A stretch of DNA of 46,440 nucleotides, from the NCBI GenBank assembly GCA_023299885.1, contig JALZUS010000020.1, positions 1-46,440 on the forward strand, written 5' to 3'. The position numbers and the translations under genes were made by a program. Shown piece after piece: positions 26,923-40,574 of the stretch. The first letter of the stretch is position 1. The number at the start of each line of letters is the position of its first letter. This DNA is from Bdellovibrionales bacterium. Lineage in GTDB: Bacteria > Bdellovibrionota > Bdellovibrionia > Bdellovibrionales > UBA1609. The notes beneath the pieces were generated by a model that ran no database searches, had not been told where the DNA came from, and worked only from the letters and a program-made list of their open reading frames with translations.

Positions 26923-27930
26923 CTATCGCCTAAGCTGGTATTTTCTAACAGCCTCATTATGCTCTTTATAAGTTTTAGAAAAGTAATGAGAACCATCATT
27001 TTTACTAACAAAATAAAAATATTCGGCAGTATCTGGCATAAGTGCAGCTTTAATGGCCTCAAAACCTGGGTTAGCTATAGGCCCTATCGGCAAGCCCCTA
27101 AAAGTATAAGTGTTATATTTATTTGGTTTTAATATATCTTTTTTTCTAATATTTGTAGGCATCACGCCTGTCTCATGAAGCATTCCATATAAAATTGTCG
27201 GATCTGTCTGCAACTTCATATCTTTTTTCAACCTATTATAAAAAACAGAAGCAATAAGTGGACGCTCGTAACCGACTCCAGTTTCTTTTTCTATGATGCT
27301 AGCTAATATAATGATTTCATGTCGGCTTAAACTTGTTTTAGATTCTGCTTTCATCTCGTTATAAGCTGCTAAACTTTGCTTAACCATTAAGTTAATAATT
27401 TCTTTTAGCGTTGTAAATCTTGTATAGCTATAGGTTTCTGGATACAAATAACCTTCTAGCGAAATTTTTTCTTCACCCAAAAGCCCCTTAACAAAAGCTT
27501 TGTTTTTCATTAAAGATAATGCTTTTTCTTTAGTTGCTATTTTAGCTTGGCTTAGCTTCTCTGCCACCTCATACATATTGTCACCCTCAACAATAAGCAT
27601 CTTATACATTTTACTTTTACCAGACGAAAAAAGAGAAAGTAAAGCCATGGGCTTTAAACCCGACTCTAACTCATATTCACCTGCCTTAATTTTTTTATCA
27701 TAACCTGTTAGCTTGCCCAATATTTTAAAACTTAATTTATCTGAAGGCTTAATAATTTTTTGAATAAGCAGAGTTTTAATGAGTTGGTTAAAAGAGCTTC
27801 CTTTATTTATAGAAACTATTTCTAATATATCATTTTTTGTTTCTTGATTAAGAAACAAAACTGTTTTTATGCCAAGACAGCCGGCAGCGATAATTAACAA
27901 ACTCAATATAATTAAAATTTTATTTTTCAT
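26923..27930 (-). CDS. mltG: Endolytic murein transglycosylase MltG
   Basis: MltG cuts nascent glycan strands at the membrane and sets their length. The product has an N-terminal membrane helix, a LysM-like part (EGDNMYEVAEKL) and the YceG catalytic domain with ASIIEKETGVGYERPLIASVFYNRL, where the Glu of IEKE is the catalytic residue, and LQTDPTILYG. The ATG at 27930 overlaps the astD stop (ATGA). An upstream TTG at 27939 with GGGG ahead is also possible. It is the last gene of the AST operon, an unusual place. Confidence 0.94.
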   Translation of the reverse strand: MKNKILIILSLLIIAAGCLGIKTVLFLNQETKNDILEIVSINKGSSFNQLIKTLLIQKIIKPSDKLSFKILGKLTGYDKKIKAGEYELESGLKPMALLSLFSSGKSKMYKMLIVEGDNMYEVAEKLSQAKIATKEKALSLMKNKAFVKGLLGEEKISLEGYLYPETYSYTRFTTLKEIINLMVKQSLAAYNEMKAESKTSLSRHEIIILASIIEKETGVGYERPLIASVFYNRLKKDMKLQTDPTILYGMLHETGVMPTNIRKKDILKPNKYNTYTFRGLPIGPIANPGFEAIKAALMPDTAEYFYFVSKNDGSHYFSKTYKEHNEAVRKYQLRR

Positions 27931-29429
27931 GATGACCAATTAATCCCCGTCATAACTTTTTCACTATCAAATGAAGTACCGTCTTCAAGACTTGCAACAG
28001 GCACAGTACAGTAGTTAAGTGCAAAATGAGCTGATGGCCTATCATTACCCGACTTACCCATGCCACCAAATGGTAGCTGCGAGCTTGCACCATTAGTAGT
28101 TCTATTCCAGTTTACTAACCCTACTTTTGCATCTAATAATACTTTTTCATAATTTTCTCTACTTTTAGAAAATATGGAGGCCACAAGTCCAAAGCCAGAA
28201 ACATTAACAATATCAATAGCCTCTTCTAGGTCTGATGTTTTATAGATAGCCACATTAGGACTAAATATTTCTGTATTTTGATAAACAGATTTAGGGTTCA
28301 TGGCATCTACCAAGTGAATACTTGGACTCACATAATTTCCTTCAAAACCAACATCTAAAGGCCTACCCGCCATCAGAGCATCATTGCCCTCGCTAACACC
28401 AATCTCTTGAAATTTAATAAAGTTATCCATAGAGCGCTTATCAATAACAGGCCCCATAAAAACTTTTTCTTTCCAATGCCCAACAGATATTTTTTTAGCA
28501 GCAGCATGAAATCTAGAAACAAACTCATCGTAAATAGAATCATGGATAACAATTTTACTGGTACAAGAACATCTCTGTCCTGCCGACAAAAATGAACCAA
28601 TTAAGTTTTCATAAATAGCTTTTTCTATTTCAGCATCAGACCAAACAATGGCAGAGTTTTTACCACCCATCTCTAGGGCTAATAGCTTCCAATATTGACT
28701 TAGAGTTTGCTCTTTAATTTGTAAGCCCACATCATAAGAACCAGTAAATAACACCCCATCAACACCTTCATGCTTTGTGAGCTTTTTACTTACCTCTACA
28801 GCGCCATGCACTAAGTTAAATACACCCTCTGGAAAGCCTGCCTCATGTATACATTCTGCCATCAACTGTGCAGTAGCTGGCGTTTTTTCCGATGGTTTAT
28901 AAACAATCGAGTTTCCCGAAAGTAATGCTGGCACTATATGGCCATTAGGTAAATGTGCTGGGAAGTTAAAAGGCCCAACAACAAGCATAACCCCCCTTGG
29001 CTTGAAGCGAATAAATCCATCTACGCCTGGCAATGCATTTTCAACTCTTTTTTCTTTAATAAGCTCTAGTGACTTCTCGATAGTTATATTTATTTTAGCG
29101 GCAATTGCTCCAGCCTCACCCAATGTTTCCCATAAAGGCTTTCCAGTCTCTCTTGAAATAATTTCTGCCATTTCTTCTTTACGTTCTAAGTAAATTTCTT
29201 GGAGTCGGCGTAACTTTGAAATTCTCTCTTCTAAGGTTGTTCTTTTCCAAATTTTAAAACCTTGAGTCGCAGCCTCTATAGCCTTGTCCATGTGATTAAA
29301 AGAAGCTTCTATTTTTATGACCTTGTCTTTGCTATCACCAGGACTCACCACAGACCAAGACTCGTCAGCATTACCTACAGTCTCAAACTTACCACCTATA
29401 TAACTACCTTTATATTTTATAACTTCCAT
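27927..29429 (-). CDS. astD: Succinylglutamate semialdehyde dehydrogenase AstD
   Basis: AstD oxidises N-succinylglutamate 5-semialdehyde in the arginine succinyltransferase pathway. The 500-residue product is an aldehyde dehydrogenase with GPFNFPAHLPNGHIVPAL, the catalytic Glu in ALEMGGKNSAIV and the catalytic Cys in SAGQRCSCTSK. The GPFNFPAHLPNGHI block is characteristic of AstD. The ATG at 29429 shares its A with the astA stop (TGATG), with AGAGGA six bases upstream; a GTG one codon earlier is less well placed. Confidence 0.93.
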   Translation of the reverse strand: MEVIKYKGSYIGGKFETVGNADESWSVVSPGDSKDKVIKIEASFNHMDKAIEAATQGFKIWKRTTLEERISKLRRLQEIYLERKEEMAEIISRETGKPLWETLGEAGAIAAKINITIEKSLELIKEKRVENALPGVDGFIRFKPRGVMLVVGPFNFPAHLPNGHIVPALLSGNSIVYKPSEKTPATAQLMAECIHEAGFPEGVFNLVHGAVEVSKKLTKHEGVDGVLFTGSYDVGLQIKEQTLSQYWKLLALEMGGKNSAIVWSDAEIEKAIYENLIGSFLSAGQRCSCTSKIVIHDSIYDEFVSRFHAAAKKISVGHWKEKVFMGPVIDKRSMDNFIKFQEIGVSEGNDALMAGRPLDVGFEGNYVSPSIHLVDAMNPKSVYQNTEIFSPNVAIYKTSDLEEAIDIVNVSGFGLVASIFSKSRENYEKVLLDAKVGLVNWNRTTNGASSQLPFGGMGKSGNDRPSAHFALNYCTVPVASLEDGTSFDSEKVMTGINWSS

Positions 29430-30445
29430 CACTTATCCTCTGAGACTAAAACCATGTCTCCTGTTTTAATTTCTAATAAACTTGAAACCTTGCCCGGCAG
29501 ATAAATTGTATCTCCAGACACACCATAGGCTGCAGAACCACACAAAAATTGATTCTTATTATTTACTGCTAACAAACCTTTTTTATCGTACTCAGCGCAC
29601 GGGGCATCAGAAAATTTATAAGTTTTGCTCTGCTTAATAATCTTAATATCTTCAAGAATTACATTTAAATGTGGGCCACCATCAAAAGGGTCCACCTCAT
29701 CATTAAATGTAAAGCCTTGAGACTCTAACATCCTGAGCGCACCTTTAGTTTCTGAGCTCACCTGACCCATAACCAAGCGAGCGCTGGCATCCAATAAGCA
29801 AAGATGTAAATCTCCTTTAGGAAATAAGTCATTAATAAACTCTTTATTAATTTGACTCACCTCATCCGCCTCTTGATATGGCATCCCCGTAAAGCGGCGA
29901 CCTAAAGCCTCCCAAAAAGCACTTTTACCCTCTTTGGTTAGCGGAGGAGCCATCTCAGAATGTATTGTCTTGGAAAACAATTGCGACTCCATAGCTAAGT
30001 ACATAAAACGAGATAAGCTTATAAGCTTTCCTACTTTTTCAGGGCGCCTTCTGTAAGACTGTTCAACAACGAGACCACCAATTTCTGTAGGTCCATCAGT
30101 GCATACCTTTAATGTTAAAAACTGATGCAAAAAACCAATCCCTAAACTTTTACTGAAAAGCTCTTTTTTAGAAATTTTAAAACTATAAGTTGGGTTTTCT
30201 TGTGTGCCATGTTTAGCCTTAATTTGAGAACAACCTATAACTTTTTTTGTCTCTAGATCTTCTAGTACAAAAAGATAGGCTGCTTTTTCTTTTATAATAT
30301 TTTTTGAAAAAGACTCTTTACTAATTTTTAGTTTTTTTTCTAACCTTTGAGTATCTGCTGGCAAATTTAACAATGAAAATTGTTTTGCCAAACCCATAAG
30401 GTCTGATAAATCTGAGGCTTTGGCTTCACGAACAATAAAATTCAT
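29429..30445 (-). CDS. astA: Arginine/ornithine N-succinyltransferase AstA
   Basis: AstA transfers succinyl from succinyl-CoA to the alpha-amino group of arginine (or ornithine). The 338-residue product has the family blocks EIGGLVVEQSYRRRPEKVGK, EALGRRFTGMPYQEADEVS, FINDLFPKGDL and the C-terminal DEVDPFDGGPHL. The acyltransferase fold is complete and its length is usual. ATGA overlaps link it to the M20-like gene upstream, and TGATG links it to astD downstream. Confidence 0.94.
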   Translation of the reverse strand: MNFIVREAKASDLSDLMGLAKQFSLLNLPADTQRLEKKLKISKESFSKNIIKEKAAYLFVLEDLETKKVIGCSQIKAKHGTQENPTYSFKISKKELFSKSLGIGFLHQFLTLKVCTDGPTEIGGLVVEQSYRRRPEKVGKLISLSRFMYLAMESQLFSKTIHSEMAPPLTKEGKSAFWEALGRRFTGMPYQEADEVSQINKEFINDLFPKGDLHLCLLDASARLVMGQVSSETKGALRMLESQGFTFNDEVDPFDGGPHLNVILEDIKIIKQSKTYKFSDAPCAEYDKKGLLAVNNKNQFLCGSAAYGVSGDTIYLPGKVSSLLEIKTGDMVLVSEDK

Positions 30446-31797
30446 TTCAAAAAATCTTTCATAATCTGCTTATAAACTTCGACTGAATCTTGAATTGCCT
30501 TCAAGCTATTAGATTCATTCGGTGAATTTACATTATTTTCACTCATGCCAGCTCCAAAAACAACTGCTGGTATTTTAAACCGACTTAGCAAGTTAGCCTC
30601 AGTAGCATGAGTTGTTTTCTTTTCTATAAGAGTTTTAGACTGTGAGGCTAAAGACTTCTCAAGGCAGGCAATGGCATCATGGCCTGGCTCTGTAGAAAAA
30701 GGTCTTTTATAAGAAAGAATCTCAAATTGGCCACCCATTTCCTCACAAGAGGCTTTAAATTCATCCATCCATTGGCGGTAAATATCCTCTGGAACACTTG
30801 GAAGAATCCTACAACTCCCCACAATCCTAATATGGTTTTTAAAGGTTTTAATTTTACCCAAGCTAAGTGTACTTACTTTTGGGCTAAAGCCATTTTCTTT
30901 AAATTCTTTAAAATTATTCTCTATTTTACTAATAATCTCTAAAAGCCTTGAGGCTTTTACTAGCGTTTCGCTCCTTGCTTCAGCGTCTATAACAATCTCT
31001 AAAGAGGCTTCTGGCGGTATAGTGTTATAACTTAGCCCACCCTCTAAATCTAAGACCACAATACCTTCAGGCAATTGAGATAAATATTTTAACATTTTAA
31101 TAATGGCGTTTTCATCTTGCTTTAACTCTGAAGAGTGTGCAGCTTTACCTAAAAATATTTTATTTTGTGTCATAGCAAAGCTATCGCTATCCCATTTTTT
31201 TCTAAAAAATTGCTCTTGTTCAGAAAATGGCAGGTTAATTTCTACAGACAAAACACCACAACCAGCAGTGTAGACTTGTAGGTTTGTTGGGCTACCTACA
31301 TACACAAAACTTGGATTTATATGCTTACTTCTAATTAATTTTAATACCGAAGACTCTGTCTCTGTCTCACCAGACGTACCCAAAACAACTATCGAGTTTT
31401 GTTTTCCAGTTTGAGAAAAACAAGATAAAGCTTCTATCTTAGAAAGAAGATCTAGCTTTGATTTAGCCACACCTAAGCCGTAAATATGATCGCCCTCAAT
31501 ATGAACTTTAAATGGATTACTCATTGTTTTATCCCAGAACGAGTAGGAGCCCGGGTCAGTGGTCCTTATAGGTGCTGAGAATATAATCTCATTTTCTGCG
31601 ACACTTTTCTTAGTTAATATTTTTATATCCGTATATACCTGTGCATTTCCGCTTGTGCTTATCTTTTTACAGACCAAGCCTCTAGACAAGGCATAGCTTT
31701 CTAAAAACAAAACACCCTCATGAACCCCTGCTGCAGTGGTCGTATCTATAGAGACAAATATTTTTGCCGCATCAATGAAGGTGTGCTTCACAGACAT
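30442..31797 (-). CDS. M20-family deacylase homologue lacking zinc ligands
   Basis: The 451-residue product has the M20 (ArgE/DapE/CPG2) layout: a catalytic domain split by a dimerisation domain that keeps its GKAAHSS motif (217-223). By eye the five metal ligands are all replaced: the HxD site reads P76-I-R78, the GRGxxD site has K112, the EE site has E144-T145, the GEPT site reads GSPT (S169), and the final His is N424 in VNSPNE. Only the general-base Glu may remain. It lies in the AST operon where AstE would be expected, between an aminotransferase and astA. It may be a pseudoenzyme, a regulatory subunit, or an enzyme with other chemistry. Confidence 0.8.
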   Translation of the reverse strand: MSVKHTFIDAAKIFVSIDTTTAAGVHEGVLFLESYALSRGLVCKKISTSGNAQVYTDIKILTKKSVAENEIIFSAPIRTTDPGSYSFWDKTMSNPFKVHIEGDHIYGLGVAKSKLDLLSKIEALSCFSQTGKQNSIVVLGTSGETETESSVLKLIRSKHINPSFVYVGSPTNLQVYTAGCGVLSVEINLPFSEQEQFFRKKWDSDSFAMTQNKIFLGKAAHSSELKQDENAIIKMLKYLSQLPEGIVVLDLEGGLSYNTIPPEASLEIVIDAEARSETLVKASRLLEIISKIENNFKEFKENGFSPKVSTLSLGKIKTFKNHIRIVGSCRILPSVPEDIYRQWMDEFKASCEEMGGQFEILSYKRPFSTEPGHDAIACLEKSLASQSKTLIEKKTTHATEANLLSRFKIPAVVFGAGMSENNVNSPNESNSLKAIQDSVEVYKQIMKDFLK

Positions 31798-31811: not shown

Positions 31812-33173
31812 TTAAGCCATCTCTAAAATAGATTTTTCAAGAATACTTTTTATCTCAGCTATATGTTTATCTTCAAGCACTACAGGCAATAAAAATCTTA
31901 ACCTGTAAGGTCCTTTTCCACAGCCAAAAGCAATGATCCCATTTTTAAAAAGTACTTTTAATAAAGCCAATTGTTTTTCGCGACTAGCATCTAGTGGCGT
32001 CACAGCCACCATCAAGCCAAGCCCCTCTGCATCCTGTAAAAGGCCTTTGCAAGTTGTGTTATTAAGATCATTAAGCATAGCTATGAATTTATGGTGGATC
32101 TCCATAATCTTACCTTCAGAGCCCATATAGTTTTCTGTTTTAAGTTTATTAAGAATAGCCTTGCCCACAGTTAGAGCAACGCTGGAACCAGAAAAAGTAC
32201 CAGCAATTAAACCTGGCTTTGGATTCATTTCGTCTGTGTATAAAGCAGCTCCGTTCTGCAAAGCTTTAGCTACAGTACAAATATCAATATAGCTAACAAG
32301 ATCTAAAGTTTGAGAGGCAAAAAACTGACCTGTACGGCAAAAAGTTTGAACTTCATCAGCCCATATTGGTATTCCATGTTTTTTGCAAAGTTCAAAAAGT
32401 GGTAAGAAAAACTCTCTAGGTGCTACATTATAGCCACCCTCACCCTGCATTGGCTCAAACATAAAAGCGCAGATATTATCTTTATTCTCTTCGATATGTT
32501 TAGCCATAATATCCGTAGATTTTTTAATAGACTCAGAGTCATTCTTATCAAAAAATGGAACTCTTAAAACTTCATGATATTCTGGCAACCCTTGCTTTAA
32601 ATTTGGGTTATCTGTGAGCTCAGCCATCATTGTTGAGCGGCCTGCAAATGCTGACTTCATTGCTAAAATTTTTCTAGCACCATTCATTTTTTGACGACAA
32701 ATTTTTAATGCATTCTCATTGGACATACTTCCACAGGTAGCCAACCAAACATGCTTAAAGCGACTGCCACTGGCTGAATCCAGTAAAGCCTCACAAACTT
32801 CTGTGTATTCGTTGTTGGGCTGTAAGTTACCCTGCATAACAACATCACTCATTGCACCTATAAGAGATTGTTCGATCACCATCGGATGGTTATGACCAAA
32901 AATATGTATGCCGATACCATTAATCAGATCCATTTTAATACTACCATCTTCAAGCTTCACGTAAGGACCATGCCCAACACCCGAACCAACATGTGGGTAA
33001 AAAAGAGGTCGCCCTCGAACAGCTCCAGCGCGGTCCATTAACTTTTGATAATCCGCCGAACCATCACCAGGCTTTACTCCAGTAATATTTTCCGTAAGGC
33101 TCTGGCTTAAACCAACAAGGCTTTTTATTTTATCTAAAACTTCATTGTTATTTTTTACATTATTAATGGACAT
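31812..33173 (-). CDS. Class III PLP aminotransferase of the AST operon
   Basis: The 453-residue product is a fold-type I class III aminotransferase. IWADEVQTFCRTG carries the cofactor-binding Asp, VAKALQNGAAL the PLP lysine, and GTFSGSSVALTVG follows. The family includes succinylornithine, acetylornithine, 4-aminobutyrate and lysine 6-aminotransferases. Its place at the head of the operon suggests succinylornithine transamination (AstC role), but its sequence is not a plain ArgD/AstC, so the symbol is withheld. The ATP-like EPMQGEGGYNVAP block is intact. A 142-base divergent gap upstream shows no clear promoter. Confidence 0.88.
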   Translation of the reverse strand: MSINNVKNNNEVLDKIKSLVGLSQSLTENITGVKPGDGSADYQKLMDRAGAVRGRPLFYPHVGSGVGHGPYVKLEDGSIKMDLINGIGIHIFGHNHPMVIEQSLIGAMSDVVMQGNLQPNNEYTEVCEALLDSASGSRFKHVWLATCGSMSNENALKICRQKMNGARKILAMKSAFAGRSTMMAELTDNPNLKQGLPEYHEVLRVPFFDKNDSESIKKSTDIMAKHIEENKDNICAFMFEPMQGEGGYNVAPREFFLPLFELCKKHGIPIWADEVQTFCRTGQFFASQTLDLVSYIDICTVAKALQNGAALYTDEMNPKPGLIAGTFSGSSVALTVGKAILNKLKTENYMGSEGKIMEIHHKFIAMLNDLNNTTCKGLLQDAEGLGLMVAVTPLDASREKQLALLKVLFKNGIIAFGCGKGPYRLRFLLPVVLEDKHIAEIKSILEKSILEMA

Positions 33174-39560: not shown

Positions 39561-40574
39561 TTATATTTTAGAGTCCACAAGCTTTAAGTCTTGTGCCTCT
39601 TGCCAAAGCTCTTCAATCTTAAACTCATGCCTAGTTATGTCATAAAACACATGAACTAAAAGTGCGCCGTAATCTAAAATTACCCAATTAGCCTCTGGCA
39701 AACCATCAATGCGTATCGGTGAAATCCCGTACTTAGACTTCACTTGGCTTTTTACAAAGTTAGCCATAGCACCAGCATGCTTTGTACTTGTTCCTGAGCC
39801 AATCACAGCGTATTCACTAGCTGCGTCCAAGCCTTCAAAGGACTTACCTAAAACTCCCATAGCTTTTCTATCAAATAAAAGCTGACCACAAAATTGTGAC
39901 AACTCAAGGTAGTTATCTACCAAGCTTTGCTTTTCTGTGTAGTAATTGTTCGCTTTAATAACATTAACCACTTGTGCTGGTAAATTTGCACTTACATCTT
40001 TATTGGCTCGTATCTGCTCTTTTATAAAAGTAGATGAAACATCAATGTCTTCTAGTTCTAAAAAGCTGATTTCTTTTCCTGTTTTTAGCTGAATAGTTTT
40101 GCCTGAAAATTCATGACAGTATTCAGCTAACTCTTCTGGTAAATCAGATACGTCTTTTGGCAGCTCATACCCAGGACGTGTTGTTACAATGATATTAGAT
40201 TTATCAATAATAGATTCGTAGTCTTTCCATAAATGGAAAACTTCAAACTGATCGGCCCCAATAATTAAATGGATTTCACTACCCGGCATTGCATTAAAAA
40301 TATGTTTTACTGTGTCTACAGAAAAACTCATGCCCCCACGTTGCACTTCACAATCGTCAATTTCTACATTTTCACCCATTTCTGGTAAAGCAGCTTTTAA
40401 CATTTCTATACGCTGGTAAGCGCGTAAAGGTGTTTCTGATTTTGGATGCGGGCTTTGATAGTTGGGTATTAATTTTATTATATCAAGGTCAAAGTTTTCT
40501 TTAACAGTTTTGACGCTATTAATATGTCCTTTATGTACGGGGTTAAATGATCCCCCAAATAAACCTATTTTCAT
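39561..40574 (-). CDS. nadD: NadD-RsfS fusion: nicotinate-nucleotide adenylyltransferase plus ribosomal silencing factor
   Basis: Residues 1 to about 215 are NadD, which makes nicotinate adenine dinucleotide: GGSFNPVHKGH (7-17), IIGADQFEVFHLW and the closing SSTFIKEQI motif. From about residue 218 to the end is a complete RsfS domain, which blocks 50S-30S joining in starved cells: AASEYAVIGSGTSTKHAGAMANFV and ANWVILDYGALLVHVFYDITRHEFKIEELW. The two are usually adjacent genes; here they form one 337-residue chain without a stop between them. obgE lies 9 bp upstream and rlmH follows directly. Confidence 0.94.
   Translation of the reverse strand: MKIGLFGGSFNPVHKGHINSVKTVKENFDLDIIKLIPNYQSPHPKSETPLRAYQRIEMLKAALPEMGENVEIDDCEVQRGGMSFSVDTVKHIFNAMPGSEIHLIIGADQFEVFHLWKDYESIIDKSNIIVTTRPGYELPKDVSDLPEELAEYCHEFSGKTIQLKTGKEISFLELEDIDVSSTFIKEQIRANKDVSANLPAQVVNVIKANNYYTEKQSLVDNYLELSQFCGQLLFDRKAMGVLGKSFEGLDAASEYAVIGSGTSTKHAGAMANFVKSQVKSKYGISPIRIDGLPEANWVILDYGALLVHVFYDITRHEFKIEELWQEAQDLKLVDSKI

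Follow-up and report, generated by a model that had tools for sequence, protein, structure and literature searches.

The acetylornithine deacetylase ArgE of E. coli (M20A; PDB codes: 7rsf, 8uw6) is a di-zinc enzyme; as is well established for the M20 family, H80, D112, E145, E169 and H355 bind the zinc, and the catalytic acids are D82 and E144. Pseudoenzymes are a known kind of protein, also within the metallopeptidase clan, and are usually met as finished products. In clan MH, nicastrin and the transferrin receptor are non-catalytic relatives with zinc-peptidase folds, which act as binding proteins after loss of the site. Both belong to family M28 and are eukaryotic membrane receptors, unlike the cytosolic metabolic proteins considered here. 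AstE, the succinylglutamate desuccinylase, is M14-type and of an unrelated family; its likeness to the protein described below would be one of role, the likely ancestral function of the latter being removal of succinate as the last step of an AST-like route. A search made mostly outside subscription papers found nothing in the literature on the Bdellovibrio operon of aminotransferase, M20, AstA and AstD or on M20 pseudoenzymes.

The protein under study is encoded in a window of 46,440 nucleotides from a Bdellovibrionales bacterium, whose genome is one draft MAG, about 92% complete and without a close relative. It has the full-length fold, the motif order, the TEA motif and the dimerisation domain in common with E. 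coli ArgE and differs from it in the replacement of the catalytic Asp and of every one of the five zinc ligands, in an operon shared with AstA and AstD, and in scores under every ArgE equivalog cut-off. The orthologue in B. bacteriovorus (L079) has the same operon position at 33-35% identity, but its site is intact (HDDEEEH) and that of the window is not. We consider it probable that the window M20 protein is a pseudoenzyme derived from an ArgE/desuccinylase, with a predicted non-catalytic role and dispensable in other lineages.

The M20 homologue and its metal site

The open reading frame spans positions 30442..31797 of the minus strand and encodes 451 aa; its assignment as an ArgE/DapE-type deacylase homologue with a degenerate metal site is based on Pfam, alignment and predicted fold. 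It scores 48.1 bits against PF01546 (Peptidase_M20, cut-off 24.6) and 26.3 bits against PF07687 (M20_dimer, cut-off 21). Among the NCBIfam models it resembles ArgE/DapE, far under every equivalog cut-off (TIGR01910, 69.5 against 217.6; TIGR01892, 56.4 against 297.7). Genes of this kind should not be annotated as acetylornithine deacetylase or desuccinylase. An AlphaFold2 model built with 63 family sequences has a pLDDT of 91.7 and a pTM of 0.88, and its best match in the PDB is the di-zinc ArgE of E. coli (Z score of 35.9, 2.8 Å over 359 residues), with LysK and DapE among the further top structural matches (Foldseek was also run). Almost all of the best 50 structure matches (VIA) are M20 proteins, with the fold of both the catalytic and the dimerisation domain. 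The window protein is accordingly modelled with high confidence, and its predicted fold is still that of M20 enzymes.

Site residues were assigned from an alignment of about 90 orthologues with E. coli ArgE, the sequence of which was entered by hand and agrees with the compared stretches of the deposited 7rsf chain. On the minus strand, the codon aligned to zinc ligand H80 encodes P76 (31570..31572), that aligned to the catalytic D82 encodes R78 (31564..31566), and that aligned to the bridging ligand D112 encodes K112 (31462..31464). The zinc ligands E145, E169 and H355 are represented by T145 (31363..31365), S169 (31291..31293) and N424 (30526..30528), respectively. As the catalytic Asp is replaced along with five of five zinc ligands, the sole survivor of the site is the catalytic Glu, E144 (31366..31368), aligned to ArgE E144. 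Alignment of the family profile to the 7rsf chain gave identical site columns. The dimerisation-domain histidine, H221 (31135..31137, minus strand), is kept within the GKAAHSS motif and aligns with ArgE H195.

A sequence-only reading of this stretch had described an M20 layout on the correct strand with correct coordinates and length, the GKAAHSS motif, and the replacements Pro76, Lys112, Thr145, Ser169 and Asn424; all of these hold, and the loss of the catalytic Asp is to be added. The structure prediction and the ArgE alignment that it had proposed as checks agree with it on the fold and on the ligand columns. It could still be asked whether the true ligands lie elsewhere in the chain, or whether the sequence is wrong, given the low identity to ArgE and the draft state of the MAG. 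However, the motif blocks are ungapped near the site, and the flanking identities FGAG, SPNE, YGLG-K and GSPT fix the columns; no break interrupts the frame, and losses of the same kind are seen in independent relatives. The alignment, together with the relatives, already refutes misalignment or assembly error, for which we see a negligible remaining chance. By this alignment, the window M20 protein is incapable of holding the M20 di-zinc site.

Among columns conserved in intact M20 copies, the window protein keeps one of seven at the site and 39 of 55 elsewhere (Fisher p=0.006). The residues kept outside the site include H221 and R330, the latter aligned to a conserved Arg. In DapE, the dimerisation-domain His has been proposed to act in substrate binding and an Arg to hold the substrate carboxylates (PMC4012986); from its position in the alignment, R330 probably corresponds to this Arg.

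Operon context and AST functions

The window M20 gene is the second in a minus-strand series that begins with a class III aminotransferase (31812..33173) and continues, after M20, with an AstA-family N-succinyltransferase (29429..30445), an AstD-like aldehyde dehydrogenase (27927..29432) and MltG/YceG (26923..27939), which is the last operon gene and conserved as such in the order. This order is found across Bdellovibrionales, including B. bacteriovorus (L079), and the M20-AstA pair, mostly with AstD, recurs in most other loci, from Deltaproteobacteria, Oligoflexia, Myxococcales and Omnitrophota. It is noted that MltG, a cell-wall lytic transglycosylase, lies 3' of AstD in nearly all Bdellovibrionales loci, an association of an amino-acid operon with cell-wall cutting.

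The sequence-only reading had called this series an AST operon, which is correct to the extent that AstA is a family member by PF04958 (322 bits). The same protein reaches 219.8 against a cut-off of 391 for the equivalog TIGR03244, and the equivalogs of AstC (TIGR03246, 112 against 610) and AstD (TIGR03240, 440 against 579) are likewise not reached, so that the operon is only AST-like. The conserved columns of these three proteins show no collapse of the M20 type: 78 of 81 are kept by the aminotransferase, 69 of 77 by AstA and 101 of 113 by AstD. The other steps of the pathway thus appear to be functional.

As had been said of the operon, AstB and a convincing AstE were not found, here in the whole genome at about 92% completeness. 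AstE was sought in it with PF04952 and TIGR03242, neither of which gave a match, and M14 matches were weak; PF24827 has matches in 57 of 58 genomes and is too broad to identify AstE. Because AstE is missing, the ancestral protein would most likely have been an ArgE-like di-zinc deacylase that removed the succinyl group put on by AstA, in the place of AstE.

The window genome has a second M20 protein (L139, 1494-2681), CPG2-like and with intact ligand motifs, which by these motifs could carry out desuccinylation. Its presence, the retention of H221 and the dimer domain in the window protein and the substrate-binding role proposed for the equivalent DapE histidine would be compatible with a hetero-dimer, in which the window protein is the regulatory half and lends His221 in trans to the intact partner. 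We hold this to be highly improbable: the second M20 protein is distant and lies outside the operon, two relatives (G005, G011) have an eroded operon copy and no other M20 match, and H221 is kept in just a third of the deeply eroded members.

Erosion and loss of the M20 gene among relatives

A locus search with the window M20 alone as query returned 0 loci, and with the family alignment as query 80 loci. At E<=1e-15, an M20 orthologue is present in 42 of the 58 same-family or same-order genomes. None of the 22 outgroup loci (L089-L110) departs from the intact site HDDEEEH, which B. bacteriovorus and many relatives also have; the family thus began as an ordinary di-zinc enzyme. In a tree of 87 operons, built from the aminotransferase, AstD and MltG (short search, SH-aLRT support), the site is intact in 34 rows and eroded in 41, a class that covers single changes too, such as HDNEEEH; the M20 gene is absent from ten rows, and two are uncallable. 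The minimum numbers of changes on this tree are nine between intact and eroded, six for presence or absence of M20 and four for AstA. Within one bacterial order, a single syntenic gene is seen in all states from an intact site through partial and full erosion to deletion, with the cultured predator B. bacteriovorus having the intact form.

The window belongs to a clade of six rows (97%) in which every M20-bearing member is without the first His ligand, so that on the phylogeny proposed earlier as a check the loss is clade-wide. The sites in this clade read PRKETSN (window), NDTKEEY, NQSHFER, NDHREHQ and PDSRTFF, and in the sixth member neither M20 nor AstA is left. A separate clade of 25 rows has no fully intact site, with the M20 gene kept in 24.

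Eight rows from several genera (L051, L058, L059, L060, L065, L075, L082, L155) read HDDAQEH, in which Ala-Gln replaces the Glu pair, that is, the catalytic base and one ligand, and the other five residues are kept. Judged by its residues, this variant might be stable and bind metal without being a hydrolase.

The sequence-only reading had left a choice between a non-catalytic partner and an enzyme with a new mechanism. The former is well supported; for the latter we found no positive evidence. A hydrolase that works metal-free, or with metal bound elsewhere, through the kept Glu144 together with R78, K112 or other new residues could draw on the retention of E144, H221 and R330, and the HDDAQEH rows, keeping most metal ligands without the Glu pair, would be compatible with altered chemistry somewhere in the family. 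A new active site should be conserved, however, and within the window's clade each lineage has replacements of its own; the deeply eroded set has few new residues in common and none among the seven site positions. Loss that is clade-wide, with replacing residues that are unconserved, speaks against a new common catalytic site, and such a hydrolase is improbable.

Whole genes were lost as well. M20 is absent where the aminotransferase, AstA and AstD are kept (G013, G017, G023, G030, G037, G041, G046, G051), AstA is absent where M20 is kept (G015, G026, G039, G045), and both are absent, with the aminotransferase and AstD kept, in G002 and G038. Clean deletions of M20, which join the aminotransferase to AstA within -10 to +71 nt, were seen in seven operons. 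The ATGA stop/start overlap of M20 and astA (30442..30445, minus strand) is real, but the proposal drawn from it, that M20 is needed at the same level as AstA, fails: since relatives have deleted M20 only, AstA only, or both, tight coupling is no argument for equal need. In L161 (G002) and L162 (G038), the aminotransferase is joined directly to AstD, and these remnants suggest that the pair needs no succinylation in order to work.

Among the operons of Bdellovibrionales that were seen complete, M20 persists without AstA and never without the aminotransferase and AstD, which are the constant core of the operon. Because M20 persists without AstA and always beside these two, the aminotransferase or AstD is weakly favoured over AstA as its partner. 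It should be mentioned that this argument draws on four operons only (L087/L130, L131, L132, L133), and that the site is nearly intact (HDDEEEQ) in two of them.

The presence of AstB was tried as a correlate of M20 erosion and rejected (11/42 against 0/9, Fisher p=0.18), with no independent pair differing in AstB. For an AstE/AspA-like deacylase, the counts are 12/42 against 0/9 (p=0.09), with too few independent pairs. Five relatives, all with eroded M20, have aspartoacylase/AstE-type deacylases with PF24827 and PF04952 matches (L111-L115), which look aspartoacylase-like; the association is not significant when relatedness is allowed for.

Constraint on the eroded protein and its likely role

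The terminal-branch ratio of M20 to the other operon proteins has a median of 1.90 in eroded and 0.99 in intact rows (p=7e-5), and is 2.13 for the window; constraint on the eroded M20 is relaxed, not gone. At fourfold sites, 57-79% of the window M20 positions differ from five relatives, which is near saturation, and in simulation 0 of 300 ORFs of 451 codons were still open at a neutral distance of 0.1. Neutrality was judged from silent-site saturation and simulation. With saturated silent sites, yet an ORF that is still open and folded, the window M20 is not a neutral relic; under neutral drift its frame and many of its conserved residues would have been lost long ago. Each of the 41 eroded frames has a length of 428 aa or more, and W88, P95, G107, G109, K114, G415, G417 and E428 are kept in 19 of 19 deeply eroded members.

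The main competing explanation is slow gene decay, in which the deacylase is no longer needed, owing to another enzyme or to a route without succinylation, and the protein is useless. The frame would stay open only since stops would be polar on the coupled astA, and a clean in-frame deletion would be the end state. The ATGA coupling, the clean aminotransferase-AstA joins, the faster evolution of M20 and the bare aminotransferase-AstD pairs of G002 and G038 would all be expected from decay, and the clean deletions, in at least six lineages, together with the raised rate count to that extent against the pseudoenzyme reading. Coupling, even if the frame served purely as a translational relay, nevertheless explains an open frame and not the residues, 39 of 55 conserved columns being kept at silent-site saturation, nor the eight residues kept in every deeply eroded member. 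The confident prediction of a full fold, and the persistence of eroded copies through the 25-row clade with one gene loss, likewise argue against decay, which we consider unlikely, though the most serious of the alternatives.

We therefore return to a pseudoenzyme with a non-catalytic role. In this proposal the window M20 would have lost all hydrolytic activity and would persist as a folded and probably dimeric protein, acting as a scaffold or binding a partner enzyme or pathway metabolite. The role would be conditional, because several lineages have cleanly deleted the gene. A broader proposal, that a metabolic deacylase was converted repeatedly across Bdellovibrionales into structural or regulatory subunits of their own pathway's aminotransferase or dehydrogenase, is tentative and rather less than even in our estimate. 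If true, the conversion of enzyme to pseudoenzyme would have been run by nature as a replicated experiment, in which each stage between the intact site and deletion of the gene is represented. The value of the case is in this replicated series of stages, pseudoenzymes as such being already known; the series makes it testable whether a non-catalytic role preceded the loss of catalysis and what takes the place of a desuccinylase in an AST-like route.

The most diverged family copy seen is a 428-aa frame between the aminotransferase and AstA of G043 (L122:4879-6165), still full length, with no Pfam match, a family HMM score of 108 bits and the site SEHRGTN. Elsewhere in the window, positions 39561-40574 hold a single frame of 337 aa that by eye appears to fuse a putative NadD with a following RsfS-like domain.
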